A stretch of 58,119 bases of DNA, taken from contig JACPUE010000060.1 in NCBI GenBank assembly GCA_016192425.1, forward strand, positions 1 through 58,119, given 5' to 3'. Below are positions 17,755 to 57,908 of this stretch, one piece after another. The position numbers and the translations under genes were made by a program. The notes beneath the pieces were generated by a model. It was not told where the DNA came from. It saw only the letters and a program-made list of their open reading frames with translations, and did no database searches. Position 1 is the stretch's first letter, and every line of letters begins with the position of its first letter. Source of the DNA: Burkholderiales bacterium. Lineage in GTDB: Bacteria > Pseudomonadota > Gammaproteobacteria > Burkholderiales > Burkholderiaceae_C.

Positions 17755-17771
17755 TGCTTGTGTTGTATTTT

Positions 17772-17848: not shown

Positions 17849-17861
17849 CGTGGAGCCACCC

Positions 17862-18870: not shown

Positions 18871-18874
18871 CGTG

Positions 18875-19316
18875 TCGCCGTTCCGTCCTGTCGCTCACTG
18901 CCTCCCCGCTGCGCTCCTGCCCCCCGTCATGTCAAACCTGGGGGACCCGCAAGCGGCGAATAGCCGCGCCCCGAAGGGTGCGGGGGCGGGTATGGGCGGC
19001 AAGCCCATGTCAGCCGACGTGCTCCACGTGCCCGATGAAGTTGCTCACGCTTTACGCGCCACCGCGCAAGGGATCGTCACCCGAATGGGCCAAGACCCGC
19101 ATGCGGGGCTTGGTGGCGAAGCCATAGAGCCCGGTTCCGAAGGAATGCGCCCGGCTGCTCTCCCTGTCTGCTGGGGTGCCTGCGGTGTGTGTGATTGCGC
19201 GTCTGCGCCCGGCGCACGCATGCGCAGCGCGGCGACGGGCGCGGGCGCGCTTGATACCCCCCCCCCGAGTAACACGGGGGTAAACAAAATTTCAGAGGTG
19301 GGGCAGGGGGTCAACC
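18875..19316. other. hairpin-rich non-coding region; candidate phage origin/packaging signal
   Basis: No convincing gene. Several stem-loops are visible. CCCCC/GGGGG arms lie around 18920-18944. GCGGC-GAATA-GCCGC is at 18953-18967. A CGCCCC/GGGGCG stem lies near 18966-18988. ATGGGC-GGCAA-GCCCAT is at 18992-19008, and CCCCCG/CGGGGG at 19262-19280 lies just before the rep ribosome site. In filamentous phages the intergenic region before or near rep carries the plus and minus origins and the packaging hairpin. The exact nick site cannot be named. Confidence 0.5.
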
Positions 19317-20417: not shown

Positions 20418-20444
20418 CAACGCCGGACATTGAAAGAAAACACC

Positions 20445-20753
20445 ATGCGATTCAACCAACGTATCCAAGTAGTCGGCATGAAAGCCAGCAAAGGCACGCT
20501 CGAAAACGGCACCGCCTACGACTCCACAAAGGTCTATGCGCTGATCGATCTGGATGCATCCAAGGGTACCGCAAAGGGCATGAGCACCAGCGAATTCAAC
20601 CTGGGTACCGCTGCTGAATTCGACGCCTACAAGCATCTTCCCTTCCCGTTTGAGGCCGACGTTGAAATGGAAATGATCACCAACGGCAAGACCATGAAAA
20701 CGGTTATGCACAAGCTTACGCCAGTTGCCCGTGCAACGGCGAAAGCCGCGTAA
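20445..20753 (+). CDS. phage single-stranded DNA-binding protein (pV-like)
   Basis: A 102-residue small protein, directly after rep. MRFNQRIQVVGMKASKGTLENG opens a predicted OB-fold, and TNGKTMKTVMHKLTPVA closes it. This pattern occurs in the helix-destabilising proteins of betaproteobacterial inoviruses, which coat new plus strands and switch replication to packaging. Start ATG 20445; a TTG at 20430 is in frame. Assignment rests on position plus weak sequence resemblance. Confidence 0.7.
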   Translation: MRFNQRIQVVGMKASKGTLENGTAYDSTKVYALIDLDASKGTAKGMSTSEFNLGTAAEFDAYKHLPFPFEADVEMEMITNGKTMKTVMHKLTPVARATAKAA

Positions 20754-20804
20754 CGGTACCACCCCGCAGGCACGGCAAAAACGCAAAACGTGACCGGGAA
20801 CGCT

Positions 20805-21011
20805 ATGCACATCGCCCCCCGTTACTACGTGCAAAGCACTGAGGATTATTGCTTTCTTCGTGCTGATGGTGATGGCGGCGTGGACTACACGCCATTGGTC
20901 ACTAACGCTACTCCGTTCACCTCTCCCGAAGCCGCCAGCGATGCGGTGCAAGACCACTGCGGCGGTGAAGGTGTGGTGTTCCGGTGCTACCAATTCGAGC
21001 GGGATTTGTGA
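20805..21011 (+). CDS. small phage protein, unknown
   Basis: A 68-residue acidic protein (HIAPRYYVQSTEDYCFLRAD). No membrane segment. ATG 20805 has a GGGA upstream; a GTG at 20790 is an alternative. Its TGA shares bases with the next ATG at 21011, supporting coupled translation. Small proteins at this position between ssDNA-binding protein and virion genes are common in inoviruses but have no assigned function. Confidence 0.6.
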   Translation: MHIAPRYYVQSTEDYCFLRADGDGGVDYTPLVTNATPFTSPEAASDAVQDHCGGEGVVFRCYQFERDL

Positions 21012-21265
21012 TGGCTGAGGCTCTTACCTCCCTCGCCCTGGCCTCGGCCTTGCTCCAGCTGAGGGGGGCGTTTGGCGCTCTGTCGATTCGGCCATTTCGG
21101 GGGGTCTACCCCGTGGCTGAGGCCCTCGCTTCGACGCTGGTCTCTTTGATGTGGGCTACCGTTTTCGTGGGGTCGGCCATGGATGACGTTTTGGTGTCTC
21201 TCTTATCCGGCGTGTGGCTGGGCTTGTGCTTGCTCGCGCTTGTGGTCTGGATCGATCGTGGCTGA
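21011..21265 (+). CDS. phage small membrane protein
   Basis: An 84-residue protein with a hydrophobic N-terminal segment and two clear membrane helices (residues about 37-56, ALASTLVSLMWATVFVGSA; and 59-80, VLVSLLSGVWLGLCLLALVVW). The start overlaps the stop of the previous gene. It could be a minor virion or assembly protein; order relative to pVIII would fit a pVII/pIX-like role, but there is no sequence signature. Confidence 0.55.
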   Translation: MAEALTSLALASALLQLRGAFGALSIRPFRGVYPVAEALASTLVSLMWATVFVGSAMDDVLVSLLSGVWLGLCLLALVVWIDRG

Positions 21266-21467
21266 CCCCGTAACCATCAACTGCCCCAGTGCCTGCACGG
21301 TCACTGTGGTGCATGAATTAAGTCTTCCGCCGCTCCAGCTGAGTGCGGTTGAGGGCGCAGAAATCGCCGTTGCCATCCTGGCGATATGGGCCATTGGCTG
21401 GGGCTTCCGTGTCCTGGTTCAGTCGGTCAAAAAAACGGATGGCGAAACTCTTAGTGAAAGTGACTGA
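21258..21467 (+). CDS. probable minor coat protein (single membrane segment)
   Basis: A 69-residue protein starting at GTG 21258 inside the end of the previous gene. It opens ADPVTINCPSACTVTVVHEL, then has one membrane helix (AEIAVAILAIWAIGWGFRVLV, residues 38-58) and a charged tail KKTDGETLSESD. There is no cleavable signal. Similar one-helix proteins precede the major coat gene in related inoviruses and are usually listed as minor coat proteins. The GTG start is the first plausible one in frame. Confidence 0.6.
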   Translation: MADPVTINCPSACTVTVVHELSLPPLQLSAVEGAEIAVAILAIWAIGWGFRVLVQSVKKTDGETLSESD

Positions 21468-21468
21468 T

Positions 21469-21672
21469 ATGAAAAAAAACCTGATTCGCGGCACTGTCGC
21501 CGTTGGTGCTCTTGCTCTGGCTGGGGCTTCGCAAGCGGCTGCAATTGATGTGTCTGCCGTTGTGACTGAGATTGGTGCCCAGGCTGCGCCGATTTCAGCG
21601 ATTGGCGGGGCTGTTCTTGTGCTTGTGGTGGGTATCAAGGCCTTCCAGTGGGTTCGCCGCGCTCTGAGCTAA
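21469..21672 (+). CDS. major coat protein (pVIII-like)
   Basis: A 67-residue precursor. Residues 1-25 are a signal peptide (MKKNLIRGTVAVGALALAGA, then SQAAA) with an AxA cleavage site. The mature protein is about 42 residues: an amphipathic start (IDVSAVVTEIGAQAAPIS), a membrane helix (AIGGAVLVLVVGIKAF) and a basic C-terminus (QWVRRALS) that would face the DNA. This is the exact architecture of filamentous phage pVIII. A terminator-like hairpin follows at 21675, as after gene VIII in other phages. Confidence 0.88.
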   Translation: MKKNLIRGTVAVGALALAGASQAAAIDVSAVVTEIGAQAAPISAIGGAVLVLVVGIKAFQWVRRALS

Positions 21673-21674
21673 GC

Positions 21675-21707
21675 GGCCCTTGTGCTCCTGTCCGGCCGGC
21701 AGGGGCC
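21675..21707 (+). terminator. terminator after the major coat gene
   Basis: GGCCCT pairs with AGGGGCC (one bulged G), with an inner CCTG/CAGG stem, followed by TTTCCAATTTTCC. Placement directly after pVIII fits the strong terminator known at this point in filamentous phages, which limits expression of the adhesin gene. Confidence 0.6.
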
Positions 21708-21785
21708 TTTCCAATTTTCCAGATTTGAAAAATTGCAAAGGCTGAGAATGGGGATATTCGTAATTATCGCAATCCTGGGGGCGGC

Positions 21786-23384
21786 ATGGCTCATTTTTAC
21801 CGCCTGATATTGACTATTCTTTTTGTCGTCAAATCGTGCGTTGTGTGTGCTGCTATCGCGCCGGATAATAAGTGGCACGGGAGCCATACTGGTGGTGAGG
21901 CGTTCTCTAGTTCGTCGTCATGTGTACAAGCCAATCGAGCGGCATGGGATTCAGCATACGCGGCTTATGTGTCGTGTCGTATTTTTACTGATCGTCCTGA
22001 AGTTGTTGAGTCTGGTTATAGGCGGGTTTATTCTGATTTATCCGGGTGTGCGGGTGGCTATGTACAGTGTTTTGCGGAAATAGCTGCGGAAACCTGTCCT
22101 GCTAATTCTTCAATGCAAGACGGCGCTTGTAAATGTGATTCGGGCTTTGAAGATCGTGACGGTGTTTGCAAAAAGAAAAATCCTTGTGCTTCCGGTCAGC
22201 ATGAAGAGGGTGGGGCATGTGTGCCTGATAATTGTAAGGCTGGCGAGATTAGGGTAAATGGATTTTGCGTTAAGGAACCTGAATGTCCATTTGGTCAAGA
22301 ACGCGTTAATGGGGAGTGCAAGCCAGCAAAATGCAGGGCGGGGGCCTCCGCTGGGGATGTTGGCGTTCCTGATGGGCAGACTATTTATTATTGTGCCTAC
22401 GATTTTGAATCAAAGTTAAGTTGTGCCGCAAAGGCTACTGCGTCAATTTGTGTTTCATGGGATGGGAAGAAAGAATGTACTGGCACGGGGCATTTCACGG
22501 GTTCCGAGTGTACGGGCCAGGAAGGGAGTCCAGGTAACGGCGGTACGAAACCTGATGGCGATGGTGGCAATGGCGGTAATAATAACGGTGGTGATAACAA
22601 TGGCGGCAACAATAATGGCGGGAATAACAGTGGGGGAAGCAACGGTGGGGGTAGCGGAAATCCCGGAAGTGGAAATCCCGGAAGTGGAAATCCGGGGACT
22701 GGAAACCCTGGCACTGGTAACCCTGGTACTGGTAACCCTGGTACTGGTAACCCTGGTAATGGCGGTCCTGGTTCTGGTTCGGGGAGTGGCACATTGCCGC
22801 CACCCAAACCTAAGCCCCCAGGTGAAGATGGTCATTGTCCGGATGGGTACCACCAAAATGGAAACCTCTGTTTTCAGGACCCTACGTCGCCCGATGGGAA
22901 CGGAAGATGCCCCGATGGGCAGGTGAGGGTGGGTGTTCGTTGTATTTCTACTGAGCCTGCCGGTGGTGGCGGTGATGGCAACGGTGATGGTGATAAAGAT
23001 GGGAAATTTGCCGGTAGTTGTTTAAGTGGGTTTTTTTGTGAGGGTGATGTTATTCAGTGTGCAATTGCGAAAGAGCAGCATATAAAAAACTGTCGGTTGT
23101 TTGATACTCGGTCTGCTGAGTCTGATCTTTATAATCAAGAAAAAACGAAAACGGGTAACAGGACTACTGATTTGCCTGGGAACGATAATAAAGATATTAA
23201 TGGCTTATTAAAGAGCGATGATGTGTTGGGTGGTGGTTCTGGTATTCGTGACCTTAACATCACGGTTTGGGGTAGTAGTGTAAATCTTCCGTTTTCGCAG
23301 TTAAATTCAGTTTTTGCGTATCTTGGGCAGTTGCTTGTTGCTGTGTCGTTTTTGATTGCGGTTCGAATCATTGGGGGTAGATGA
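21786..23384 (+). CDS. TspB-like/pIII-like phage adhesin
   Basis: A 532-residue virion tip protein. It has a signal peptide (MAHFYRLILTILFVVKSCVVCA), a cysteine-rich N-terminal half with repeated C-x-G modules (CKCDSGFEDRDGVCKK, CPFGQERVNGECKP), and a Gly/Asn linker at about 255-290. Seven GNPG(S/T/N) pentapeptides follow at about 291-325. The C-terminal domain (SCLSGFFCEGDVIQC) is like Neisseria TspB, and a C-terminal membrane helix (YLGQLLVAVSFLIAVRII) anchors it before release. Plays the pIII role of host-pilus binding. It is AT-rich and unlike host codon use. Confidence 0.85.
   Translation: MAHFYRLILTILFVVKSCVVCAAIAPDNKWHGSHTGGEAFSSSSSCVQANRAAWDSAYAAYVSCRIFTDRPEVVESGYRRVYSDLSGCAGGYVQCFAEIAAETCPANSSMQDGACKCDSGFEDRDGVCKKKNPCASGQHEEGGACVPDNCKAGEIRVNGFCVKEPECPFGQERVNGECKPAKCRAGASAGDVGVPDGQTIYYCAYDFESKLSCAAKATASICVSWDGKKECTGTGHFTGSECTGQEGSPGNGGTKPDGDGGNGGNNNGGDNNGGNNNGGNNSGGSNGGGSGNPGSGNPGSGNPGTGNPGTGNPGTGNPGTGNPGNGGPGSGSGSGTLPPPKPKPPGEDGHCPDGYHQNGNLCFQDPTSPDGNGRCPDGQVRVGVRCISTEPAGGGGDGNGDGDKDGKFAGSCLSGFFCEGDVIQCAIAKEQHIKNCRLFDTRSAESDLYNQEKTKTGNRTTDLPGNDNKDINGLLKSDDVLGGGSGIRDLNITVWGSSVNLPFSQLNSVFAYLGQLLVAVSFLIAVRIIGGR
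22656..22760 (+). repeat. seven 15-bp tandem repeats within the adhesin gene
   Basis: Seven in-frame 15-base units coding G-N-P-G-(S/T/N). The left units read GGAAATCCCGGAAGT and the right units GGTAACCCTGGTACT. This is a flexible spacer whose length could vary by slippage or recombination without breaking frame. Confidence 0.9.
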
Positions 23385-23683
23385 TGCCTATTTTTATCGC
23401 TGCCATAGGTGGCATGCTTATAAATGTTGTGGGTACATTGGCGGGGCGGGTATTAATTGCGTTGGGTATATCGGTTGTTACTTATACGGGTATTAATGCT
23501 TCGTTGGATACTCTTAAGATGCAGGCTATTTCCAATTTTAGTGGTTTGCCCTCAGAGTTGTTTTCTTTGGTCGCTTATCTTAAGGTGGGTCAGTGTATTA
23601 GCATCGTGAGTAGCGCTATCGCCGCTAGAATGCTTCTTGATGGTATTACGTCTGATACTTTTAAGCGCTGGGTGCTCAAGTAA
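23381..23683 (+). CDS. DUF2523 family virion protein (pVI-like)
   Basis: A 100-residue hydrophobic protein with three probable membrane helices (IFIAAIGGMLINVVGTLAG; VLIALGISVVTYTG; and VGQCISIVSSAIAARMLL). DUF2523 proteins lie between the adhesin and zot in most proteobacterial inoviruses and are the pVI equivalents that cap the virion end. ATG 23381 overlaps the adhesin stop, and its own stop shares bases with the zot ATG, so the three genes are coupled. Confidence 0.85.
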   Translation: MMPIFIAAIGGMLINVVGTLAGRVLIALGISVVTYTGINASLDTLKMQAISNFSGLPSELFSLVAYLKVGQCISIVSSAIAARMLLDGITSDTFKRWVLK

Positions 23684-24879
23684 TGTTGTACCTTGTCACG
23701 GGCGCAAATGGCGCAGGTAAAACGTTGAATGCGCTCAAATGGGTGCGTGAGCGTCAGATTAAAGAGGGTCGCCCCGTTTGCCATAATGGCCGGTTTGAGC
23801 CTGTCGAGGGCGGTGAGCTTTCGGCTTGGAAGAAAATCGATATTCAAAAGTGGCAGAATGAGCCGGACGGCACGATTTTTTTAGTCGATGAATGCCACAA
23901 CGATTTCCCGTTACGCGCTCCGAGTGCAAAGCCGCCTGATTATGTCCAAATGCTTGCAGAGCATCGGCGGCGCGGTTTTGACTTCTACTTGATAACCCAG
24001 CATCCACAAAACATTGACGCCTTTGTTCGGCGTTTGATTGGCTCTCCTGGTTGGCACCGTCATTTGAAGCGTCCTTTCGGTGGCGATCTTGTGAGTGTTC
24101 AGGAATATCCGGCTGTTAATGCGCAGTGCGAAAAGCAGGGGGCGGGCAAAAATGGTTCTGTAACCATGGTTCCATTTCCTCGTGACGTGTTTTCGTGGTA
24201 TCGCTCGGCGAGTTTGCATACGGCGAAAAAGCGCATTCCACGTATGATGTGGCTGTTGCTTGCCTGTGTTGTGCTCGTGCCGCTGTTGTTTGTGGTGGCG
24301 TTTAAAACGGCGGGTTCGTCTGGTTCTAAAGCGCAGCCGTCGGTGGTTGTGGCGTCTGCGTCCGAGTCGTCAAAGGCTGGGGTTTCTGCGCAGCATGTGA
24401 GCGTTGATGACTACATTGCGTCGCGCAAGCCGCGACTTCAGGATTTTCCTCACACGGCCCCTGCGTATGATGAAGTTACGAAGCCGGTGACGGCTCCGTA
24501 TCCTGCCGCGTGCGTTATGTTTCGTGGGGCGTGCACTTGCTACACCCAGCAAGGTACTCGTATGCCTGTTTCGGGTGACGTTTGCCAGCAGATTGTCAAG
24601 GTTGGTTTTTTTGTTGACTGGGATGTGTCTGGCAGAAAAAAAACGGATGCGCAGGATTCATTAGGGCGTGTTGATCGGCGTGATGATCGATTGCACGATG
24701 ATCGTCGGCATGACGTTCAGGAAGCGGTTGTTCGCGTGTTGCCCATGCCATCGTTTGATCGCAATCTTCCTGGTCAGGTTACGCAGGCTGATATTAAGCA
24801 TCTTGGTTTGACGTCTCGTAACCCCGCCATGGCGGCTGTTGTCGCGGGGCAGTCGGGCGTGTCTGAAAACCCGCGTTAG
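23683..24879 (+). CDS. zot: Zot-family assembly ATPase (pI)
   Basis: A 398-residue phage assembly and export ATPase. Walker A is GANGAGKT at residues 7-14, and Walker B is TIFLVDECH near 65-73, followed by LITQHPQNID. After about 185 cytoplasmic residues there is one membrane helix (MMWLLLACVVLVPLLFVVAF) and a periplasmic C-terminal domain with paired cysteines (CVMFRGACTCY). This is the pI/Zot architecture that extrudes virions through the envelope. A T-rich stretch 20 bases after the stop may end the transcript. Confidence 0.93.
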   Translation: MLYLVTGANGAGKTLNALKWVRERQIKEGRPVCHNGRFEPVEGGELSAWKKIDIQKWQNEPDGTIFLVDECHNDFPLRAPSAKPPDYVQMLAEHRRRGFDFYLITQHPQNIDAFVRRLIGSPGWHRHLKRPFGGDLVSVQEYPAVNAQCEKQGAGKNGSVTMVPFPRDVFSWYRSASLHTAKKRIPRMMWLLLACVVLVPLLFVVAFKTAGSSGSKAQPSVVVASASESSKAGVSAQHVSVDDYIASRKPRLQDFPHTAPAYDEVTKPVTAPYPAACVMFRGACTCYTQQGTRMPVSGDVCQQIVKVGFFVDWDVSGRKKTDAQDSLGRVDRRDDRLHDDRRHDVQEAVVRVLPMPSFDRNLPGQVTQADIKHLGLTSRNPAMAAVVAGQSGVSENPR

Positions 24880-24976
24880 TGCGATGGTTTGAAAACGCCG
24901 TTTTTTTAGGGGATAGCGGGGAGTGTATCGGCGTTAGATTTTCGCGTTTCGTGACCGGGAACGGGAGTGTGTTTGT

Positions 24977-25552
24977 ATGTCGCTTGTGGGTTATGCGCGT
25001 GTGTCGACTCAAGATCAGGATACGGCGTTGCAGCGTGATGCTTTGCATCGGGCTGGTGTGTCTAGATTGTTCACTGAGGCGGGTTCCGGTGTTGGGCCTC
25101 GCCCACAGTTGCAGTGTGCTCTTCAGTCGTTGCGGCCTGGGGATACGCTGGTTGTTTGGAAGCTTGACCGTGTGGCGCGTAGCTTGTCAGATTTGCTTGC
25201 GATACAAGCCCGTTTGCGTCGGTGTGGCGCATGCATTAGGTCGCTGACTGAGCCGCTCGATACGTCAAGCCCTTTCGGGGAATTTACGTTTCAGGTGTTG
25301 GGCGCTGTGGCCCAGCTCGAACGCTCAATGATTCGTGAGCGTGTGATGGCTGGTCAGGCTGCGGCGCGAGCTCGTGGCAAGACATGGGGCCGGATTCGGT
25401 CTATACCTGATGGGGATATGCCTGCCATTGTTGACATGTGGCGCGGTGGCGTTGTCACGCAATCTGAGCTTGCCGACATGTGGGGCGTTAAGGTTGCATG
25501 TCTGCGCGATCACATCCATCGTTTCGAGTCTCGCGGTCGTTGGCGGGCATGA
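24977..25552 (+). CDS. small serine recombinase (putative phage integrase)
   Basis: A 191-residue resolvase/invertase-type recombinase. GYARVSTQDQD at 5-15 places catalytic Ser10 correctly. VVWKLDRVARS carries the conserved arginines, and LGAVAQLERSMIRERV is the E-helix region. The C-terminus ends in a helix-turn-helix (TQSELADMWGVKVACLRDHI). It is the last phage gene, 70 bp from attR, and the only recombinase in the element, so it is the best candidate for integration and excision. It has its own upstream gap with GGGAG before the ATG. Confidence 0.88.
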   Translation: MSLVGYARVSTQDQDTALQRDALHRAGVSRLFTEAGSGVGPRPQLQCALQSLRPGDTLVVWKLDRVARSLSDLLAIQARLRRCGACIRSLTEPLDTSSPFGEFTFQVLGAVAQLERSMIRERVMAGQAAARARGKTWGRIRSIPDGDMPAIVDMWRGGVVTQSELADMWGVKVACLRDHIHRFESRGRWRA

Positions 25553-48520: not shown

Positions 48521-49519
48521 TCAGCGGCGGGCAGGCGGCGCAGGCAGTAGGCCGCGCACCAGCGCCTGTACGGCTGCGCTTTCAGCTTGCGGCGCAAACA
48601 AGGGCGCGCGCGCCGCGCACTGGCGCTGGAGCAGGGCGTACAAGCCCTCGGGCCGGGCCCGTTCGTCGCGGCAGCGCAGCAGCAGTTGCGCCAGCGCTGG
48701 CGCATCGTCCAGCGCGAAATAGCCGCCATAGTCCGCCCCCAGCATACCCACATTGCCAGGAATGCGTGAGGCCAGCACGGGCGTGCTGCTGCACACCGCC
48801 TCCAGAATGGCATGCGCGCCGCCCTCCATGCGGCTGGTGTGCACCAGCACATGGGCCTGGGCGATGGCGCGCAAGGTGCCGCCATGCGCCATGGCGCCGC
48901 GCCAGTGGTACTGCGGGCACTGCGCCATGCATGCGCGCGCCTGCTCGCCCAGCGCTGCATCCAGCGCGCCGCCGATGTGGTCGATGGTGATGCCGCCGTG
49001 CCCGCGCAGAAGCCGCGCTGCTTCCCACAGGGTCTGCGGCGCTTTTTCATCGCGCAGGTGGCCCACCATGACCACGCGCAGCGGCGTGGGCGGTTTGGGC
49101 AACGGTGCATGGGATGCGGCGGACTGAAAGATGACCCGGGCCTTGGAGCGCAGTGCTGCGGGCAATGCGTCGGGGCCGCATTCCTGCAGCACCACCAGCG
49201 AGCGCGCCAGAAGCAGCGAGGCTTGTGCCTGGGCGTCGGTCTGGATGTCGCGGTACAGGTCGGTGCCGGTGAGTACCACGGCCAGCCCTGGGGCGTCGTG
49301 CTGGGCGCCGTGGGCCTGCGCCCAGCGCGCAATCGCGGGTGCCGAGCGGCGCGCATGCAGGGCCAGCAGCACGTCATACGGTGTGCCGTCCCAGTCCTGG
49401 GCGATGGCTACTTCGCAATCAGGTTGCAGCATCTGCGCCCAACGCGCGGCCGTGTGCCAGTTGCCGTTGTTGGCGGCGGCGGTCGCCGGGCTGATGATGA
49501 GTACGCTTGGCGCTGTCAT
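48521..49519 (-). CDS. senB: SenB-like selenosugar synthase (TIGR04348-type glycosyltransferase)
   Basis: A 332-residue GT-B glycosyltransferase. The N-terminus reads LIISPATAAANNGNWHTAARW, the C-terminal UDP-sugar domain VVMVGHLRDEKAPQTLW, and the donor site LVHTSRMEGGAHAILEAV followed by IPGNVGMLGADYGGYF. This pattern matches the TIGR04348 family, shown in Variovorax to be SenB. That enzyme joins selenophosphate with a UDP-sugar to make a selenosugar. Start ATG 49519 is 100 bp from the divergent transporter operon. The senA-like gene 4 kb away and egtD support the pathway assignment. Confidence 0.78.
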   Translation of the reverse strand: MTAPSVLIISPATAAANNGNWHTAARWAQMLQPDCEVAIAQDWDGTPYDVLLALHARRSAPAIARWAQAHGAQHDAPGLAVVLTGTDLYRDIQTDAQAQASLLLARSLVVLQECGPDALPAALRSKARVIFQSAASHAPLPKPPTPLRVVMVGHLRDEKAPQTLWEAARLLRGHGGITIDHIGGALDAALGEQARACMAQCPQYHWRGAMAHGGTLRAIAQAHVLVHTSRMEGGAHAILEAVCSSTPVLASRIPGNVGMLGADYGGYFALDDAPALAQLLLRCRDERARPEGLYALLQRQCAARAPLFAPQAESAAVQALVRGLLPAPPARR

Positions 49520-49619
49520 GGTGGGTGGGTGCGCGGCAGGGGGCAAGGGCTCGGGTGCAGCAGGGCTGTGCGGTTTCGAGTCTAATTCGCTCTTTCGTTT
49601 TTGTGGACAGGAGATCTGA

Positions 49620-50486
49620 ATGGCTTTGAGAACCAAAGGCTGGGGCGCACGCGCATTGGTGTTGGTGGCATTGGCCTTGACCAGTTGGGTGGCGCAGGCG
49701 CAAACCACGCTGCGCGTGACGGCCATTCCCGATGAGTCGCCCACGGAGCTGGCACGCAAGGCCGCACCGCTGGTCAGGTACCTGGAAAAGGTGCTCGGCC
49801 AGCCGGTGGTGTTCACCCCGGTGTCGGATTACGCCGCCGCGGTGGAAGGCCTGGCCAACAAGCAGATCGATCTGGCTTGGTACGGGGGCTTCACCTTTGT
49901 GCAGGCCAACATCCGCTCGGGCGGCAAAGCCGTGCCCCTGGTGCAGCGCGCTGAGGACGCCGCGTTTCGCTCGGTGTTCATCACCAGCAACCCCGCCATC
50001 CAGAACCTGGCCGACCTCAAGGGCAAGAGCGTGAGCTTTGGCGCGCCGTCCAGCACTTCGGGCCACCTCATGCCGCGCAGCTTCTTGCTGCAAGCGCAGA
50101 TCGAGCCCGAGCGCGACTTCAAGCGCGTGGCCTTCTCGGGCGCGCACGACGCCACCATCGCCGCCGTGGCGGCGGGCAAGGTCGATGCCGGGGCGCTCAA
50201 CATCTCGGTGTGGGAGAAATTCGTGGCCGAGGGCAAGGTGGACAGCACCAAGCTGCGCGTGTTCTACACCACCCCCAGCTACTTCGACTACAACTGGACC
50301 GTGCATGCCGACATGCCCGCCATCCAGCGCGAGAAGCTGGCCCAGGCCTTTCTCAAGCTCGACGCCAGCACGCCCGAAGGCAAGGAAATCCTGGCCCTGC
50401 AGCGCGCCACGCGCTTCATCCCTACCAAGCCAGAGAACTACCAGGGCATCGAGCAGGCGGCGCGCAGTGCGGGTTTGCTGAAGTAA
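49620..50486 (+). CDS. PhnD-type periplasmic binding protein, probably for a selenium oxyanion
   Basis: A 288-residue binding protein with signal peptide (LVALALTSWVAQAQ). The mature start LRVTAIPDESPTELARKAAP, then DLAWYGGFTFVQANIRS and GAPSSTSGHLMPRSF, mark the PhnD superfamily. The exact wording resembles the subgroup labelled putative selenate ABC transporter binding protein (TIGR04553) more than phosphonate PhnD. Context, divergent from senB and near senA, supports selenium uptake. Phosphonate or phosphite remain alternatives. CAGGAGAT precedes the ATG. Confidence 0.8.
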   Translation: MALRTKGWGARALVLVALALTSWVAQAQTTLRVTAIPDESPTELARKAAPLVRYLEKVLGQPVVFTPVSDYAAAVEGLANKQIDLAWYGGFTFVQANIRSGGKAVPLVQRAEDAAFRSVFITSNPAIQNLADLKGKSVSFGAPSSTSGHLMPRSFLLQAQIEPERDFKRVAFSGAHDATIAAVAAGKVDAGALNISVWEKFVAEGKVDSTKLRVFYTTPSYFDYNWTVHADMPAIQREKLAQAFLKLDASTPEGKEILALQRATRFIPTKPENYQGIEQAARSAGLLK

Positions 50487-50500
50487 AGCTGGTGCGTGAT

Positions 50501-50560
50501 TTGCTACTATTTTGATAGCTGCTTACGCATGTTTTATGAGGGCTAAGGCCATATTTTTTA
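50501..50560 (+). repeat. dispersed hairpin repeat, copy G
   Basis: TTGCTACTATTTTGATAGCT, then GCTTACGCATGTTTTATGAG and GGCTAAGGCCATATTTTT. It fills the gap between the binding-protein gene and the ATPase gene. No Shine-Dalgarno site is visible before the ATPase ATG. Confidence 0.75.
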
Positions 50561-50561
50561 T

Positions 50562-51398
50562 ATGAAAATTGCCCTAGGCTCCCTCCAGGCCCGCCACCCC
50601 GCCGCCGCGCCAGGCACCGCCCCCGTGCTGCGTGTGGAGCAGCTGCACGTCCAGGCAGGCGAGCTGCTGGCGGTGATCGGCCCTTCGGGGGCGGGCAAGA
50701 CCACGCTGCTGCAGGTGCTGGCCTGTGCGTTGCCGCCCAGCGCGGGCACGCTGCGCCTCGACGGGGTGGATCCGTGGGCCGCCCGCCCTGCCGAGCTGCA
50801 AGCGCTGCGCCGCGCGCTTTTTCTGGCGCCGCAGGTGCCGCCGCTGCCGCCGCGCCAGCGCGTGGTCACCGCCGTGCTGGCGGGGCGGCTGCCGCACGAA
50901 TCGCTGTGGGCCAGCCTGCGCAGCCTGTTCTACCCGCAAGACATCCCGCTGGCGCACCGCGCGCTGGCCGCGTTTGACCTGGGCGACAAGCTGTTTGAGC
51001 GCGTGGACCGCATTTCGGGCGGCGAGCGCCAGCGTGTGGGCCTGGCGCGGCTGCTGGTGGCGCAGGCGCGCCTGTGGCTGGTGGACGAGCCTTTGTCTGC
51101 CCTCGACCCCACGCGTGCGCGCCAGGCGCTGCACACCTTGACACGCATGGCGCAAGAACGCGGCGCCACGCTGGTGGCCACGCTGCACCAGGTGGACATG
51201 GCGCTGGCGTACTTCCCGCGCATCGTCGGCCTGCGCGACGGGGCGGTGGCGTTTGACCTGCCCGCTGCCGAGGTTACCCCGGCGCTGCTGCACGCGCTGT
51301 ACGCCCAGCACCTGGACGAACTCTCCACCGCTGCCCCAGCGTCCTGGATGGATGCACCCGCCGCCGCCCCGGCCCCGGTGGTCATGCACTGCCGCTGA
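50562..51398 (+). CDS. PhnC-type ABC transporter ATPase
   Basis: A 278-residue ATPase. Walker A is GPSGAGKTT, signature [15 protein letters not shown], Walker B RLWLVDEPLSALDP, and H-loop LVATLHQVDMALAYFP. The LHQVD and PRIVGLRDG wording is typical of PhnC-like proteins. It energises the importer formed with the two following permeases. The ATG lies two bases past repeat copy G and lacks an evident ribosome site, so expression relative to the binding protein may be set by the repeat's structure. Confidence 0.85.
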   Translation: MKIALGSLQARHPAAAPGTAPVLRVEQLHVQAGELLAVIGPSGAGKTTLLQVLACALPPSAGTLRLDGVDPWAARPAELQALRRALFLAPQVPPLPPRQRVVTAVLAGRLPHESLWASLRSLFYPQDIPLAHRALAAFDLGDKLFERVDRISGGERQRVGLARLLVAQARLWLVDEPLSALDPTRARQALHTLTRMAQERGATLVATLHQVDMALAYFPRIVGLRDGAVAFDLPAAEVTPALLHALYAQHLDELSTAAPASWMDAPAAAPAPVVMHCR

Positions 51399-51420
51399 CG
51401 CGCTGAACGCCTGCCCGCCC

Positions 51421-52275
51421 ATGCCCGCGCTGCACCCGGCACCCATGCCATCCACCGCCGCCGCCGTCCCCCAGCGCGACCCGGCCTGGCGCACGCGCCT
51501 CTTTTGGATGCTGGCCGCGCTGGCACTGCTGTGGCCCTTGGGGGTGTGGACGGAGTTCCGCCCCTGGTTGCTGGATGGCGAAGCGCTGGCGCCAGCGGGG
51601 CGCTTTGTGGCGGGCTTTTTCCCGCCGCGCAGCGACACCGAATTCCTGCAGTTGCTGCTGCGCGAAACCTGGCGCACCGTGGCCATGGCCACCGCCGGGC
51701 TCACGCTGGCGCTGCTGCTGGCGGTGCCGCTGGCGCTGCTGTCGGTGCGCGTGCTGTCGGTATCAAGCCTGCGCGGGCGCATGGCACCGCTGCCCGCGGC
51801 GCTGCGCCAGGGCGTGCGCTGGGTGGCGCTCATCCTGCGCAGCGTGCCCGAACTGGTGTGGGCGCTGGTGTGGGTGCGCGTGGTGGGCCTGGGGCCTGCG
51901 GCCGGGGTGCTGGCCATTGCGCTCACCTACAGCGGCATGCTGGGCAAGGTGTATGCCGACATTTTGGAAAGCGGCGACACCCATGCCACCACCAGCCTGC
52001 TGCGCAACGGCAGCGGGCGCATGCAGGCTTTCTTCTACGGGCTGCTGCCGCACAACGCGGGCGAGCTCACCAGCTACACCGTGTATCGCTGGGAATGCGC
52101 CATCCGCTCCAGCGCGGTGCTGGGCTTTGTGGGTGCGGGCGGTCTGGGCCAGCTGATGGATGGCTCCATGAAGATGTTCAACGGCTCCGAGGTCGCCAGC
52201 ATCCTGCTCGTCTTCATGCTGCTGGTGGCCCTGGCCGACCGCATGAGCGCCGCACTGCGGCGCAACCTGGCGTGA
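51421..52275 (+). CDS. PhnE-type ABC transporter permease 1
   Basis: A 284-residue permease with about six membrane helices. The coupling region is RNGSGRMQAFFYGLLPHNAG, and the PhnE-type motif SAVLGFVGAGGLGQLMDGSM is near the C-terminus. A second, distinct permease follows, so the channel is probably a heterodimer. The start ATG 51421 gives normal length; the frame is open further upstream but overlaps the ATPase gene. No cytoplasmic fusion domains. Confidence 0.85.
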   Translation: MPALHPAPMPSTAAAVPQRDPAWRTRLFWMLAALALLWPLGVWTEFRPWLLDGEALAPAGRFVAGFFPPRSDTEFLQLLLRETWRTVAMATAGLTLALLLAVPLALLSVRVLSVSSLRGRMAPLPAALRQGVRWVALILRSVPELVWALVWVRVVGLGPAAGVLAIALTYSGMLGKVYADILESGDTHATTSLLRNGSGRMQAFFYGLLPHNAGELTSYTVYRWECAIRSSAVLGFVGAGGLGQLMDGSMKMFNGSEVASILLVFMLLVALADRMSAALRRNLA

Positions 52276-52280
52276 TACGC

Positions 52281-53132
52281 ATGAGCGATTCCCCACCAAC
52301 ACCTGTGCAGGCACCGTCCCCGTACATGCCGCCACCGCAGCAACTGCCGCCGCCGCTGTTTGATGCGCGCTGCAAGGCCTGCTGGCTCACGCTGGGCATC
52401 CTGCTCTTGGTGCTGGCCAGCTTTGCCACGCTGGACCTGCGCCTGGCGCAATGGGCCTCGTGGGACGCATGGGTGCGCATGGGCCGCTTTGTGGGCGAGC
52501 TGCTGCACCCGGTGACCACGCCCGCGTTCCTGGCGCGCGTGGGCCAGGCCACACTGGAAACCCTGGCCATGTCGGCCCTGGGCACGCTCATCGCCGCCGT
52601 GCTGGGCCTGCTGCTGGCACTGCCCGCTGCCCGCACCCACGCGCAAGACCCGGCCCGCGCACGTGGCGTGGCGCGCCTGCTGCTCAACGCGCTGCGCAGC
52701 GTGCCCGAACTGGTCTGGGCGGCCCTGCTGCTCATCGCCGTGGGCCTGGGGCCGTTTGCGGGCACGCTGGCGCTGGGCGTGCACACGGCGGGCGTGCTGG
52801 GCCGCCTGTTTGCCGAAAGCCTGGAGAACGCCGCCCCCGAACCGGCCCAGGCCCTGCGCCTGCGCGGCGTGGGTGGGGTGCGCGTGTTCCTGTACGCCAC
52901 CTTGCCGCAGGTGCTGCCGCAGCTCATCAGCTACACCCTGTACCGCTGGGAAAACAACATCCGCGCTGCCACCGTGCTGGGCGTGGTCGGCGCAGGCGGC
53001 CTGGGCCAGATGCTGGCCTTTCACATGGGCCTGTTCCAGATGGGCGAGACCAGCACCGTGCTGCTGGCCATGCTGGTGTTGGTGGCGCTGGTGGATGGGG
53101 CGAGCTACGGTATGCGCAAGGTGCTGGCGTAA
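52281..53132 (+). CDS. PhnE-type ABC transporter permease 2
   Basis: A 283-residue permease. An unusual proline-rich N-terminus (PTPVQAPSPYMPPPQQLPPP) precedes the first helix. ARGVARLLLNALRSVPELVW and TVLGVVGAGGLGQMLAFHM match permease 1 in pattern but not in detail, indicating an old duplication. It starts 6 bp after permease 1. Its stop is one base from the stop of the convergent LysE gene, so the operon has no separate terminator. Confidence 0.85.
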   Translation: MSDSPPTPVQAPSPYMPPPQQLPPPLFDARCKACWLTLGILLLVLASFATLDLRLAQWASWDAWVRMGRFVGELLHPVTTPAFLARVGQATLETLAMSALGTLIAAVLGLLLALPAARTHAQDPARARGVARLLLNALRSVPELVWAALLLIAVGLGPFAGTLALGVHTAGVLGRLFAESLENAAPEPAQALRLRGVGGVRVFLYATLPQVLPQLISYTLYRWENNIRAATVLGVVGAGGLGQMLAFHMGLFQMGETSTVLLAMLVLVALVDGASYGMRKVLA

Positions 53133-53133
53133 C

Positions 53134-53754
53134 TTAATGATCGGCTGCGAGCTTTCCACCAAGGCCAATCAAGACCGTGCCCATGACGGCGTCAATGGGT
53201 TTGCGCAGTTGGGTGTAACCACGCTGAACCTTTGGTGTGGAAAAGAGAACCGCCATGGCGCTGAACCAACTGACCGAAACCCCTGCGACTACGCCAATCG
53301 TCGCTGCATGAATCCAGATCGGTGCATGGGCAGGGAGCACCGCCACAAACAGACTTCCAAAGAAGGCCGCGGCCTTCGGGTTGGTCAGCCCAACGATCAA
53401 ACCCCGTTGGTATGCTTGTGCGTCGCTGCGAACGGAAACAGCTTGCGCATCTGAAGCGCTTGTGGGCTTGCGAAGCCCCATCAGGGTCTTGATGCCCAGG
53501 TAGATCAAATACAAGGCGCCTGCGATCCGAATCCCCTCGTAGAGCCATGCAACCTGAGCGAGGATCAGTCCCAAACCGAAAACGGCAAGCAAGGCCCACA
53601 GTGCGTGTGCGCTGGCAATGCCAAATGCTGTCAGCAAGCCTGCACGGCGCTTTGCAAGGGCGTGCGAAGTGACTGCAATCAAGTCAGGCCCCGGGCTGAC
53701 ACAGCCCAGCAACATGACCCCAGCGATAGCTGCAAGTTGGGGGAGATAGCTCAT
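53134..53754 (-). CDS. LysE/RhtB family exporter
   Basis: A 206-residue membrane exporter. The signature SPGPDLIAVTSHALAKRR is near residues 20-37, and VGLTNPKAAAFFGSLFVAVL is the second family motif. It is AT-richer than adjoining genes, pointing to a different origin. It sits between the importer and senA-like gene; a role in exporting a selenium or histidine-derived product is conceivable but only suggested by position. Confidence 0.87.
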   Translation of the reverse strand: MSYLPQLAAIAGVMLLGCVSPGPDLIAVTSHALAKRRAGLLTAFGIASAHALWALLAVFGLGLILAQVAWLYEGIRIAGALYLIYLGIKTLMGLRKPTSASDAQAVSVRSDAQAYQRGLIVGLTNPKAAAFFGSLFVAVLPAHAPIWIHAATIGVVAGVSVSWFSAMAVLFSTPKVQRGYTQLRKPIDAVMGTVLIGLGGKLAADH

Positions 53755-53866
53755 GAGATGCCTTTCAGAAAATCGGTGATTTGATTTTGCATCCGTCTTG
53801 TCGATGGAATCGGAATACTGTTGGCGTCCAATTGTTGACCATGCTGATGCTGGTGGCAACAATCCT

Positions 53867-55048
53867 TCACAATGCCACCGTCCTGAACCCCGCAAACACA
53901 TCGCTGCGGTGCGGCTGGAAGAAGTTGCGGTAGCGCCGGTGGTGCATGCGCGCGTGGGTGGCGAAGGCGCCGCCGCGCAGTTCGCGGTGGGTGCCGAACC
54001 AGGGCTGGGAGTAGGCGTGGTAGGGGCCGGGGGTGAAGCCGGGGTAGGGCGCAAAGTCGCTGGCCGTCCATTCCCACACGCTGTGGCCCCAGTGGAATGC
54101 AGCGCCTTGCGTGGCGGCGGTATGCTCCCATTCGGCGGCGGTGGGCAGGCGCCGCCCGGCCCACAGGCAGTAGGCCTGGGCTTCAAAAGCGTTGACGTGC
54201 AGGGCGGGCAGGGCATCGGTCAACGCCACCCATTGGTCGAACCAGCGCATCTGCCAACTGCCTTGCGCCGTGCGGCGCCAGCGCTGGGGGTGGTTGACGG
54301 GCGACTGGGCGCGCCAGGTGCCTGCCGTGCCCGGCCAGTAGCGCGCTTCAAGGTAACCGCCCGCATCCACAAAGCGCGCAAAGTCCAGGGCGCGCACCGG
54401 GGCGCTGTCGATTGCAAAGGCGTTCAGCGCCACGGGCAGCGCGGGGCTCTCGTTGTCAAAGGCAAAGCCCGCCTCGCCCGCAGGCCAGCCGATGGTGGTG
54501 GTGGCGGCTTGCACGGCCAGCGTCTGGGCGTGCGGCACCTGGGGCATCGCCACGCCCGCAGGCGCGGGGTAGGCCAGTGCCGCGCGCATCCAGCAATAGG
54601 CCTCGGCATGCATGTCCTCGTGGAACAGGGCCAGGCGGTGGAAGTAGAGCGCGGCGTCGCTGCCTTGCGCGGGCAGTGCGGCGATGCAAGCCTGCAGCTG
54701 CCCGTCCAGCATGGCGCGCAGTTGCTCGCGCGTAGGCAGCTCCGCAGTCCAGCGCTGGGCGTGCGCCAGGCGGGCCGAGTCCAGCATCGCATCCGGCCCC
54801 GCGTGGCGCGCAGGCTGTGCCGCATGTACAAAACCCTGTGCATCGCACCGGTGCGGGCCGCGCAGTATCCAGAACTCGGCAAACCAGGCGGTATGCGCCA
54901 GCTCCCAGGCCACGGGGTTCACACCCAGCTGGCAGGGCGGCAGCCACTGCGCGGGGCTCAGGTCGCTCACCAGCGCCCAGGTGCGCGCGCGGCTTTCGCG
55001 CAAGGCATCGGCCAGGTAGGCTCCGTGGAGATGGCGAGCTTGTGGCAT
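53867..55048 (-). CDS. senA: SenA/EgtB-like hercynine-coupling nonheme iron enzyme
   Basis: A 393-residue enzyme. The DinB-like N-terminal half supplies the three-His iron site: His52 in WELAHTAW, and His143/His147 in LFHEDMHAE. The C-terminal half is an FGE-sulfatase domain (LPTAAEWEHTAA, SVWEWTASDFAPYPGF, ending RNFFQPHRSDVFAGFRTVAL). This is the EgtB/SenA superfamily, which oxidatively joins hercynine to a sulfur or selenium donor. senB nearby and the absence of egtA/egtC/egtE favour SenA (selenoneine) over EgtB (ergothioneine). EgtB activity cannot be excluded. Start ATG 55048. Confidence 0.75.
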   Translation of the reverse strand: MPQARHLHGAYLADALRESRARTWALVSDLSPAQWLPPCQLGVNPVAWELAHTAWFAEFWILRGPHRCDAQGFVHAAQPARHAGPDAMLDSARLAHAQRWTAELPTREQLRAMLDGQLQACIAALPAQGSDAALYFHRLALFHEDMHAEAYCWMRAALAYPAPAGVAMPQVPHAQTLAVQAATTTIGWPAGEAGFAFDNESPALPVALNAFAIDSAPVRALDFARFVDAGGYLEARYWPGTAGTWRAQSPVNHPQRWRRTAQGSWQMRWFDQWVALTDALPALHVNAFEAQAYCLWAGRRLPTAAEWEHTAATQGAAFHWGHSVWEWTASDFAPYPGFTPGPYHAYSQPWFGTHRELRGGAFATHARMHHRRYRNFFQPHRSDVFAGFRTVAL

Positions 55049-55133
55049 GGCGGGCCTTTCACACTGTGGGTGGCCATTATGGTGTGCCAGCCCGGTTGCT
55101 TTGACCTTGTTGATGGCACGGCTACCGTAGCGA

Positions 55134-56054
55134 TCATTGCGCCGCCTCCAAATAGTCCACCAGAACCCGTACACGTGCACTCAAATGCCGGTTGTGCGGA
55201 TACAGCAAATAAAAGGGCCGCGTGCAACCGTTGAGTTCGGGTACCACAGGCTGCAGTTCCCCGCTGCATGAGGCGGCAATCCAGTCAAAGGTTTGCACCA
55301 GCCCCATGCCATGGCGTGCGAGCACCACGCAGCCCAGCGGCCCTTCGCTGACGCGTACGCGGCTTTGGGGCAGCCATTCTGTTGCCTTGCCGTCAATATT
55401 CAATAGCCAGGGCATCACACGTCCCGTGCTTGGCCGTACAAAGGGCAGCAGTGTGTGTGAACCGCTTGCGAGATCCTGCACCGACCGGGGGGCATCCTGC
55501 GCACGCAGGTATGCCGGGCTCGCATACACACCCAAAGGTGCGTCCTCAAGCTTGCGTGCCACCAGACGCGAGTCGCGCGGTTCGCCCAGGCGGATGGCGA
55601 TGTCGTAGCCTTCATCGATGAAGTCGATGTTGCGATTGGCGACATTGATTTCCAGCTCGATTTCGGGGTATCGCGCATGAAACGCAGGTAATTGCGGCAA
55701 TAGCCGGTAATGGGCGTACGTACTTGGTGCGCTGATGCGCAAGAGGCCCCGTGGCTGGCCGTGCTGGCCGGTGATGGATTTTTCAGCATCGTCAATCTGC
55801 GTCAGTGCAGCCTTGCACTGCTCGTAGTACACGCGGCCATCGTCCGTGAGTTGCACGCGGCGTGTGGTGCGCCGAAACAGCTTGACGCCCAGGCGCTCTT
55901 CAAGCCGGCCAACCCCACGGCTCACAGCCGCAGGGGTGAGGCCGAGTGCTTGTGCTGCAGCGGTGAATCCACCCAATTCCGCGGCCTTGCAGAACAGCGC
56001 AACGGTGCCGAGTTTGAGGTCAAGCGATTGGCTTGAAGGGAAGCTGTGGTGCAT
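55134..56054 (-). CDS. LysR-family transcriptional regulator
   Basis: A 306-residue regulator. The winged helix reads LFCKAAELGGFTAAAQALGLTPAAVSRGVGRLEERLGVKLFRRT at 20-63; the effector domain follows (LRISAPSTYAHYRLLPQLPAF, DIAIRLGEPRDSRLVARKL). It is of the AaeR/DsdC-like group with VNRGVGRLE wording. Divergent from the DJ-1/PfpI gene, its most likely target. About 130 bp separate the starts and contain the AT-rich promoter region. Confidence 0.88.
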   Translation of the reverse strand: MHHSFPSSQSLDLKLGTVALFCKAAELGGFTAAAQALGLTPAAVSRGVGRLEERLGVKLFRRTTRRVQLTDDGRVYYEQCKAALTQIDDAEKSITGQHGQPRGLLRISAPSTYAHYRLLPQLPAFHARYPEIELEINVANRNIDFIDEGYDIAIRLGEPRDSRLVARKLEDAPLGVYASPAYLRAQDAPRSVQDLASGSHTLLPFVRPSTGRVMPWLLNIDGKATEWLPQSRVRVSEGPLGCVVLARHGMGLVQTFDWIAASCSGELQPVVPELNGCTRPFYLLYPHNRHLSARVRVLVDYLEAAQ

Positions 56055-56187
56055 ACCGCTTCATTATCAACTTCATGTATCAATTGATTCAAGCGCGAGC
56101 CACTTTATTGCATTTGAAGGCGTCAATAAAGTATCGGCCATGCAATTTGCAATCGTGCTTTGCATGACCTCCTGGAACGAATTTGCC

Positions 56188-56880
56188 ATGAACCCCTTAT
56201 TGATGATCGTTACGTCCCATGCCCAGTTGGGCAGCACCGGCAAGCCCACCGGCATTTGGGCGGAAGAACTGACCACCCCCTACTACACGCTGGTTGATGC
56301 GGGCTACGAGGTTACGCTGGCCTCCCCCTTGGGCGGCAAGCCGCCGTTTGCCGAGGGCTCGGTCAAAGAGACCGTTGAAGCCAACGAAGGCAGTGTGAAG
56401 CGCTTCCTGCAAGACCCTGCGGCGATGGCGAAATTCAACACTACGCACAAGGCATCTGCTTTGGATGCCGCAAATTTCTGTGCAGTGTTTTTGCCGGGCG
56501 GCCACGGCACGATGTGGGACATTGCGTTGGATGATGCAACGGCACGTATCGTGAGCGATGCTTTCAATGCGAACTTGCCGGTTGCCGCCGTCTGCCACGG
56601 TGTTGCCGGATTTGTGAAAGCCACACGCAGCGACGGCAAAAGCATTGTCCATGGCAAGCGCGTCAATGCCTTTACCAACGAGGAAGAAGCAGGCGTTGGC
56701 CTGATGGACGTGGTGCCATTCCATTTGGAGACCCGCCTGCGGGAGCTCGGCGGACGCTTTGAAAATGGCCCAATGTGGCAGCCCTACGCAGTGCGTGATG
56801 GTCATTTGATCACCGGACAAAACCCCGCATCAAGTGCGCTGGTTGCACAACAGGTCGTCGCGGCGCTGCGCGGTGAATGA
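56188..56880 (+). CDS. DJ-1/PfpI (Hsp31-like) family protein
   Basis: A 230-residue class I glutamine-amidotransferase-like protein. The nucleophile elbow is AVCHGVAGF (catalytic Cys), with acidic residue IWAEEL near the N-terminus and FLPGGHGTMWDI. This matches the Hsp31/glyoxalase III subgroup, which detoxifies methylglyoxal. Start ATG 56188 (MNPLLMIVTS) fits the family; ATGs at 56140 and 56164 are in frame but code unrelated residues. Probably controlled by the divergent LysR gene. Confidence 0.87.
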   Translation: MNPLLMIVTSHAQLGSTGKPTGIWAEELTTPYYTLVDAGYEVTLASPLGGKPPFAEGSVKETVEANEGSVKRFLQDPAAMAKFNTTHKASALDAANFCAVFLPGGHGTMWDIALDDATARIVSDAFNANLPVAAVCHGVAGFVKATRSDGKSIVHGKRVNAFTNEEEAGVGLMDVVPFHLETRLRELGGRFENGPMWQPYAVRDGHLITGQNPASSALVAQQVVAALRGE

Positions 56881-56981
56881 GTGCTGCTGCCCCGCTGGAA
56901 CACTGTCCTTGACGATCGCCCCGGTGGGCGCACCCGCTGGCCACGCTTTTGGTCTTTTGGTATACCCTGTACCCAGCCACC

Positions 56982-57908
56982 ATGACGCAGCCCCTCCCAC
57001 CCGAGTTCCTGGACATCGCTACCGGCCTGCTGCAAACCCCGGCCACCATCGCGCCCAAGTATTTCTACGACGCGCGTGGCTCCGCGCTGTTTGAGGAAAT
57101 CACCCGCCTGCCCGAGTACTACCCCACGCGCACGGAAAACGCCATCATGGCCACCCACGCGCAAGCGATGGCGCAGGCCATCGGGCCGGGCGGCACGGTG
57201 ATCGAACTGGGCGCGGGCAACTGCCAGAAGGCGCGCGCATTGTGCGAGTGCATCCAGGCCCGGCATTACGTGGCGGTGGATATTTCCGAGGCCTTCATGC
57301 GCGAGGCCGTGGCGGGCATGCGTGCGGCCTTCCCCGCGCTGCCCATCGACGCCGTGGTGGCCGACATCACCACCGGCTGGGCCTTGCCCGCGCACGTGCC
57401 CAAGGGCCAACGCCTGGTGTTCTATCCCGGCTCGTCCATCGGCAACTTCGACCCGCCCCAGGCCCAGGCGCTGCTCTCAAGCATGCGCGGCGTGTTGGGC
57501 ATGGAGGGCGCGCTGCTGATCGGCGTGGACCTGGTCAAGGACACGGCCGTGCTCAATGCCGCCTACGACGACGCAGCGGGTGTGACGGCAGCCTTCAACC
57601 GCAACATGCTCGACCACGTCAGCCGCTTGATCGGCGCCGACTTTGATGCGCGCCAGTGGCTGCACCGTGCATTCTTCAACGCCGCGCAGTCGCGCATCGA
57701 AATGCACCTGGAGGCCGCGCAGGATGTGGACGTGACCTGGCTCGGCGGTGCGCGGCACTTTGCCCAGGGCGAGCGCATCCATACCGAGAACAGCTACAAA
57801 TACCGGGTGAACGACTTCGTGGCGCTGCTGCGCCAGGCCGGCTTTGCGCAGACCCAGGTGTGGATGGACGCACAGCAGTGGTTTGCGGTGGTGCTCGCAC
57901 GGCCCTGA
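56982..57908 (+). CDS. egtD: L-histidine N-alpha-methyltransferase EgtD
   Basis: A 308-residue SAM-dependent methyltransferase producing hercynine (trimethylhistidine). ATIAPKYFYDARGSALFEEI, LPEYYPTRTENAIM, SAM loop VIELGAGNCQKARALCECI, FYPGSSIGNFDP and GVDLVKD are all EgtD signatures, and HTENSYKY ends the substrate site. Slightly shorter than the actinobacterial enzyme. Hercynine is the shared precursor for ergothioneine and selenoneine, so this gene completes two of the steps of the neighbouring sen-type pathway. A partial IS lies 128 bp downstream. Confidence 0.95.
   Translation: MTQPLPPEFLDIATGLLQTPATIAPKYFYDARGSALFEEITRLPEYYPTRTENAIMATHAQAMAQAIGPGGTVIELGAGNCQKARALCECIQARHYVAVDISEAFMREAVAGMRAAFPALPIDAVVADITTGWALPAHVPKGQRLVFYPGSSIGNFDPPQAQALLSSMRGVLGMEGALLIGVDLVKDTAVLNAAYDDAAGVTAAFNRNMLDHVSRLIGADFDARQWLHRAFFNAAQSRIEMHLEAAQDVDVTWLGGARHFAQGERIHTENSYKYRVNDFVALLRQAGFAQTQVWMDAQQWFAVVLARP

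Follow-up and report, generated by a model that had tools for sequence, protein, structure and literature searches.

Does the group of genes lying between 48.5 and 57.9 kb of contig JACPUE010000060.1, from a draft genome of a Burkholderiales bacterium (assembly GCA_016192425.1), couple the uptake of selenium with the biosynthesis of selenoneine? An earlier note on this 58,119-nucleotide stretch of DNA (here, in its whole length, the window) had read the locus in this way, and our computational follow-up arrives at the same best reading. Judging from sequence comparisons, we put at roughly 80% the probability that genes for selenoneine biosynthesis are joined here to those of a selenium importer; the placement of the SenA protein and the presence of SelD elsewhere in the genome both agree with it. 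The locus reads senB (minus strand), an importer operon (plus), a LysE-like gene (minus), senA (minus), a LysR gene (minus), a DJ-1/PfpI gene (plus) and egtD (plus). All the genes named in the note are present, with SenB, the importer binding protein, SenA and EgtD scoring above curated cut-offs.

Biosynthetic genes

The senA gene (53867..55048, minus strand) encodes a predicted selenoneine synthase, which matches the SenA model NF041186 at 463.5 bits (cut-off 420) and falls short of the EgtB model TIGR03440 (217.4 bits, cut-off 360). Whether this protein would cluster with SenA or with true EgtB had been named beforehand as the test of the reading, and both a tree and a set of diagnostic alignment columns place it with SenA. 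The tree comprises 122 rows (119 homologues from fetched loci, the window protein and two solved chains), its support being given by the Shimodaira–Hasegawa-like approximate likelihood ratio test (SH-aLRT) only, with no bootstrap. The nearest neighbor of the window protein, at 88% identity, comes from a metagenome-assembled genome (MAG) of Giesbergeria sp. (locus L053); the two are nested in a set of 13 rows (SH-aLRT 100) and this, in turn, in a set of 59 rows (99) that includes Variovorax paradoxus SenA (8k5i). A separate set of 25 rows (100) consists mostly of Burkholderiales EgtB proteins on egtD-bearing loci, and OvsA (8ux5) forms a separate pair (99) with a protein of genome G038 (L163), the window protein lying elsewhere. 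At 21 columns separating 82 SenA-side rows from the 25 EgtB rows (with the window's own subclade left out of the reference rows), the window protein carries the SenA letter in 19 cases, the EgtB letter in one and another letter in one. The three-histidine iron site was correctly described as intact (H53, H144 and H148 in the 394-residue reading); these residues are identical in 122/122 rows and are found in EgtB too, and so are not diagnostic.

Comparison with the two related enzymes is consistent with this placement. OvsA, the selenoxide synthase of ovoselenol biosynthesis, is homologous to the window SenA, but it occupies its own branch, and the window protein is closer by score to the SenA chains (275 vs. 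191 bits). The bacterial EgtB-EgtD pair of ergothioneine biosynthesis shares EgtD with the locus, SenA and EgtB being homologous; the differences are that the window enzyme falls in the SenA clade and that its genome has no EgtB match. Against the SenA model, the EgtB-type proteins from nine genomes of the genus stay under the cut-off at 309–389 bits; eight of these proteins were fetched beside egtD, and all eight fall in the EgtB clade.

The senB gene (48521..49519, minus strand, with the stop at 48521 and a likely ATG at 49519) encodes a predicted selenosugar synthase, which matches TIGR04348 at 425.9 bits (cut-off 300) and the four solved SenB-type chains found at 359–379 bits. Residues N20, T23 and K158, named in the excerpted text of PMC10891094, are kept by alignment, and the motif EGGAHV reads EGGAHA in the window, with its glutamate (E231) kept. 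As a separate observation, one of the strongest senB matches (444 bits; G049:C69:61195-62124, locus L036) stands alone in its genome, where the best SenA match reaches 169.2 bits and the importer has no match; this senB may serve another selenosugar product. The egtD gene (56982..57908, plus strand), for the histidine N-alpha-methyltransferase that makes hercynine, matches TIGR03438 at 393.1 bits (cut-off 290.9) and is linked to the locus, as had been noted.

Selenium genes of the genome and the predicted product

The window belongs to a genome of 3.67 Mb in 68 contigs, estimated as 99.99% complete. The missing partner, senC/selD, had been noted as lying nowhere in the window and was to be sought in the genome. 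The search recovered a single SelD above the cut-off (428.8 bits), on contig C27, where selD adjoins a divergent selU; one SelA is encoded on contig C8. Since a single SelD occurs together with selU and selA, it would be shared by the selenoneine, selenocysteine and selenouridine routes. An 847-codon open frame at this selD, considered as a possible fusion, merely extends upstream across selU on the opposite strand, and none of the SelD matches of this genome is fused to an oxidoreductase. As a side observation, in the order sample described below 13 genes for SelD are read with one in-frame TGA (in G040, G047, G081, G090, G095, G125, G135, G139, G166, G175, G179, G204 and G216), and are perhaps selenoprotein SelDs themselves.

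The genome contains one egtD match (at E up to 1e-40), and no second EgtB was found in it, the next SenA/EgtB-like match after SenA scoring 74 bits. That weak match, on contig C11, covers model positions 170–381 only and does not look like an EgtB. Because no second EgtB was found, we infer that the product of the locus is selenoneine, not ergothioneine. In a genus sample of 26 genomes (including the window's own), SenA is above the cut-off in four (G000, G011, G018 and G023) and EgtB-type proteins of 309–389 bits occur in nine. Both protein types occur together in G011 and G018, SenA occurs alone in G000 and G023, and selenoneine without ergothioneine is therefore predicted for the latter two.

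The importer and its linkage with selenium genes

Four genes on the plus strand make up a complete transporter: a substrate-binding protein (49620..50486; TIGR04553 394.9 bits, cut-off 250), a PhnC-like ATPase (50562..51398; PF00005, and TIGR02315 at 186 bits, below the cut-off of 266.1) and two PhnE-like permeases, the first (51328..52275, start uncertain) at 192.6 bits against TIGR01097, below its cut-off of 216.7, and the second (52275..53132, start approximate) passing it at 256 bits. The binding protein exceeds the cut-off of TIGR04553 by 145 bits, and the NCBIfam name of this family, "putative selenate ABC transporter" (ATP-binding cassette transporter), means that a selenium link has already been proposed by its curators. 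The open literature that was covered, which did not include Kayrouz et al. 2022, contained no binding experiment, no test of a TIGR04553 importer and no argument for selenite as its substrate. The term "TIGR04553" was unmentioned there, and "selenate ABC transporter" occurred in annotation-type mentions without binding data, one of which suggested selenite export without a test.

Co-occurrence across genomes supports the selenium link. In a first sample of 60 relatives, again including the window's genome, the binding protein is above the cut-off in 20; it is found in 13/16 of the genomes with senB above the cut-off and in 7/44 of the others. In an order sample of 200 genomes (25 of them also in the first sample), matches at E up to 1e-60 were obtained for the binding protein in 46, senB in 59 and selD in 143 genomes, or 45, 57 and 143 above the cut-offs. 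Among the importer-bearing genomes 27/46 have senB, vs. 32/154 of the others (Fisher p 2e-6), and 41/46 have selD, vs. 102/154 (p 0.001), in a test that ignores shared ancestry and draft gaps. Physical linkage, with no more than 20 kb between the binding-protein gene and senB or selD, is seen in 11/46 order-sample genomes (10/45 without the window's), where about 2% would be expected by a rough estimate. The importer stands head-to-head with selD, senB or egtD in several genera; in three genomes having no senB match (G093, G201 and G206) its partner is selD, which in G093 and G206 also adjoins selU. Given the co-occurrence with both senB and selD and this pairing with selD where senB is missing, the system probably imports selenium for general use and not for selenoneine specifically.

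The likely oxyanion was approached through the binding pocket. Among solved chains, those nearest to the binding protein bind phosphonate or phosphite (7s6g, 185 bits; 5lq5, 158 bits). The excerpted text of PMC5700983 lists the phosphite contacts of Pm_PhnD (5lq5) as Y46, S126, T127, S128, H158 and D205, with F90 as a further pocket residue and Y206 as the cap, partnered by D13 and N176, and reports that phosphite is bound 2–4 orders of magnitude better than phosphate and phosphonates. Pm_PhnD was aligned with the importer sequence of the window and 61 others taken from loci (at >240 bits to it). In these 62 sequences, Y46, F90, S126, T127, S128, H158 and Y206 are kept in 62/62, and variation is seen at D13 (48 D, 14 E), N176 (47 N, 14 D, one S) and D205 (48 D, 14 N). 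Selenite carries three oxygens plus a lone pair, and selenate carries four oxygens. Since the phosphite-type three-oxygen pocket is kept, selenite rather than selenate is the likelier substrate. The label "selenate-type" given to the importer by the earlier note is thus a database name only, and the pocket, which is that of three-oxygen phosphite binders, points to selenite.

The same evidence feeds the strongest alternative, namely that a phosphite/phosphonate importer lies by chance between senB and senA and that selenium enters via sulfate or phosphate transporters. Pm_PhnD and PtxB (PMC5700983, excerpt) are of the same family by sequence as the window binding protein, whose first-shell phosphite residues are kept, and a "Phosphonate/selenate ABC transporter" appears in a Pseudomonas putida exoproteome table of a phosphorus study (PMC9426549, excerpt), a name that does not establish TIGR04553 membership. 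We nevertheless consider this alternative unlikely, as the importer co-occurs with senB and selD and pairs head-to-head with selD, senB or egtD in several genera, and its context in the window, unlike that of Pm_PhnD and PtxB, is selenium metabolism. In addition, the binding protein does not reach the cut-off of the PhnD model TIGR03431 (174.1 bits vs. 261.1), although one permease does pass the PhnE model, and the genome lacks the C-P lyase protein PhnJ (with a positive E. coli control; phosphite dehydrogenase was not searched for).

Layout of the locus in relatives

The order of genes was compared by tblastn, using the window proteins and the genome's SelD, across the best 80 of 588 SenA relatives. 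These 80 SenA loci, many of which end at contig ends, carry senB in 66 cases, the importer in 25, a SelD-like gene in 40 and egtD in 23; when the count is restricted to the 42 loci that reach 18 kb or more, the corresponding numbers are 36, 16, 26 and 14. Both importer and senB are present on 24 loci, of which 18 have the importer on the far side of senA, 3 on the far side of senB and 3 between the two genes. The last three, from Rhodoferax (L057, L061) and Polaromonas (L058) MAGs, share the order and orientation of the window (senA, phnE2, phnE1, phnC, binding protein, senB), and their SenA proteins fall inside the window's 13-row subclade. The interleaved order described earlier thus stands as regards the importer between senA and senB and the non-adjacent selD, but it is not peculiar to the window. 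Two of these loci (L057 and L058) differ by a SelD-like gene after senB, which the window lacks there. The window layout is that of its Rhodoferax/Polaromonas relatives with additional genes: LysE follows phnE2, and the pair of LysR and DJ-1 genes separates senA from egtD. An assembly artefact is unlikely, as these three other records repeat the join between phnE2 and senA. Only short or imperfect repeat pairs flank the locus (insertion sequences as such were not searched for).

The described sen cluster of V. paradoxus DSM 30034 (PMC9814287; PMC10702425 and PMC10891094, excerpts) has the SenA and SenB families in common with the window, whose genome also has SelD. In contrast to its senA-senB-senC arrangement, senA and senB of the window stand some 4.3 kb from each other and enclose the importer, selD is missing from the cluster, and egtD and the importer are linked to it. 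The importer also adjoins the selD-senB-senA cluster of V. paradoxus ISL-3 (L060).

Several additional features were seen on these loci. In the Polaromonas MAG, a gene directly after senB (L058:15902-18190) encodes a fusion protein in which a pyridine nucleotide-disulfide oxidoreductase domain (TIGR03169, 503.9 bits) precedes SelD (298.2 bits), and similar weak SelD matches (33–39% identity) occur at L044, L045, L046, L057 and L091. Beside senA of genome G037, other PhnE/PhnC/binding-protein-like genes (L154, 8.7–14.1 kb; 27–33% identity) represent another transporter within this superfamily.

Neighboring genes and other features of the window

Three genes of the locus have no assigned part in the pathway: a LysE/RhtC-like exporter gene (53134..53760, minus strand, start approximate), above the Pfam cut-off and below the NCBIfam ones, a LysR-type regulator gene (55134..56054, minus), and a DJ-1/PfpI-like gene (56170..56880, plus, start approximate) divergent from it. 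The latter two, between senA and egtD, went unmentioned in the earlier note. It is improbable that they are functional parts (an exporter of selenium compounds, a regulator and a stress protein), although their position within the locus, and that of the LysR gene 85 bp upstream of senA on the same strand, would suit such roles. LysE had been noted between senB and senA; among the relative loci listed (L036–L192) it has no match above 60 bits, which disfavors a selenium-compound exporter. Its place between senA and phnE2 is a gap of about 70 bp in L058 and holds a weakly phosphatase-like frame (32.5 bits, below cut-off) in L061 and a GGDEF/EAL-like frame in L057, so it is unlikely to belong to the system and is probably a passenger. 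The DJ-1/PfpI-like gene is probably a passenger as well, and the LysR/DJ-1 pair as a whole looks like passengers; in G023, the closest relative, senA and egtD do not have it between them.

The 100-bp divergent promoter region between senB and the importer (49520..49619) contains TTTCGAGTCTAAT at 49574-49586, with a possible -10 element common to some relatives. Its GTCTAAT (listed as ATTAGAC) is found in 11/63 upstream regions, vs. about 1 expected in mononucleotide shuffles, a weak signal as the rows are related; beyond this -10-like element, no shared regulatory motif was found in the 63 regions. Elsewhere in the window, a low-GC stretch just before hrcA (17266-25552) resembles a filamentous prophage; it encodes a Rep_trans replication initiator (19317-20417), a 532-aa frame without a Pfam match (21786-23384), a Zot-family protein (23683-24879) and a resolvase (24977-25552).

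Discussion

Taken together, these comparisons point to the following pathway, in which the reactions of SenC, SenB and SenA are known from relatives (PMC9814287; PMC10702425, PMC10891094 and PMC10903977, excerpts). The binding protein would capture a three-oxygen selenium oxyanion, most likely selenite, for import by the ATPase and the two permeases, and the cell would reduce it to selenide. The single SelD, encoded beside selU, would turn selenide into selenophosphate, from which SenB would transfer selenium to a UDP-sugar, giving a selenosugar. EgtD would trimethylate histidine to hercynine, and SenA would join hercynine and selenosugar oxidatively, with selenoneine being released.

Several observations weigh against this reading, along with the limits on tree support and on the Fisher tests given above. 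The OvsA-like protein L163 (G038:C6:41494-42771) scores 427.1 bits against NF041186, above the SenA cut-off, yet it groups with OvsA and appears to be of the ovoselenol type. As a result, passing the SenA cut-off is not decisive by itself, our confidence was lowered, and the curated model does not exclude ovoselenol-type enzymes fully; the separation of SenA from OvsA and EgtB is drawn from the tree as computed, rather than from the cut-off. The characterised V. paradoxus SenA (275 bits to the window protein) belongs to a SenA subclade other than the window's. On the importer side, 35/46 binding-protein genes of the order sample lie more than 20 kb from senB or selD, many contigs being short, and senA, senB, selD, selU and egtD are all missing from the fetched stretches of L181–L192 (12/20 importer loci), L143–L151 and L169–L170; the linkage between importer and selenium genes is thus common but no rule. 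The pocket would fit phosphite equally well, and the reduction of the imported oxyanion to selenide is a putative step. Finally, in G023 the senB-importer block (which aligns with 41.9–53.1 kb of the window) and the divergent senA and egtD, about 0.1 kb apart, are on different contigs.

The least probable alternative, that the gene at 53867 codes for EgtB and makes ergothioneine in partnership with egtD while SenB serves another selenosugar product, could draw on its being the only strong SenA/EgtB-like match of the genome, near egtD, and on senA and egtD being neighbors in G023 with senB on another contig, but is very improbable given that it passes the SenA cut-off and misses that of EgtB by a wide margin, that tree and columns put it with SenA, and that the nine EgtB-type proteins of the genus score below the SenA cut-off and the eight fetched beside egtD sit in the other clade.

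The sen pathway and the selenium-linked name of the importer family are known already. In the excerpted text of two reviews (2022, PMC9312934; 2026, PMC13188914), no specific high-affinity selenium transport system had been identified in prokaryotes. A broader proposal, to which we give about even odds, is that the TIGR04553 importer may be this missing dedicated system, derived from a phosphite-type binder, with a tyrosine-capped pocket that would accept pyramidal selenite and exclude selenate, sulfate and phosphate. It would feed SelD for selenoneine, selenouridine and selenoproteins, its genes moving between head-to-head pairings with selD, senB and egtD. An importer genetically tied to selenoneine and selenophosphate genes is thus a concrete candidate for selenium import in prokaryotes, and the pocket comparison yields a testable prediction, selenite over selenate. 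In the organism itself, one SelD seems to supply three selenium products, and EgtD seems to work for selenoneine only.

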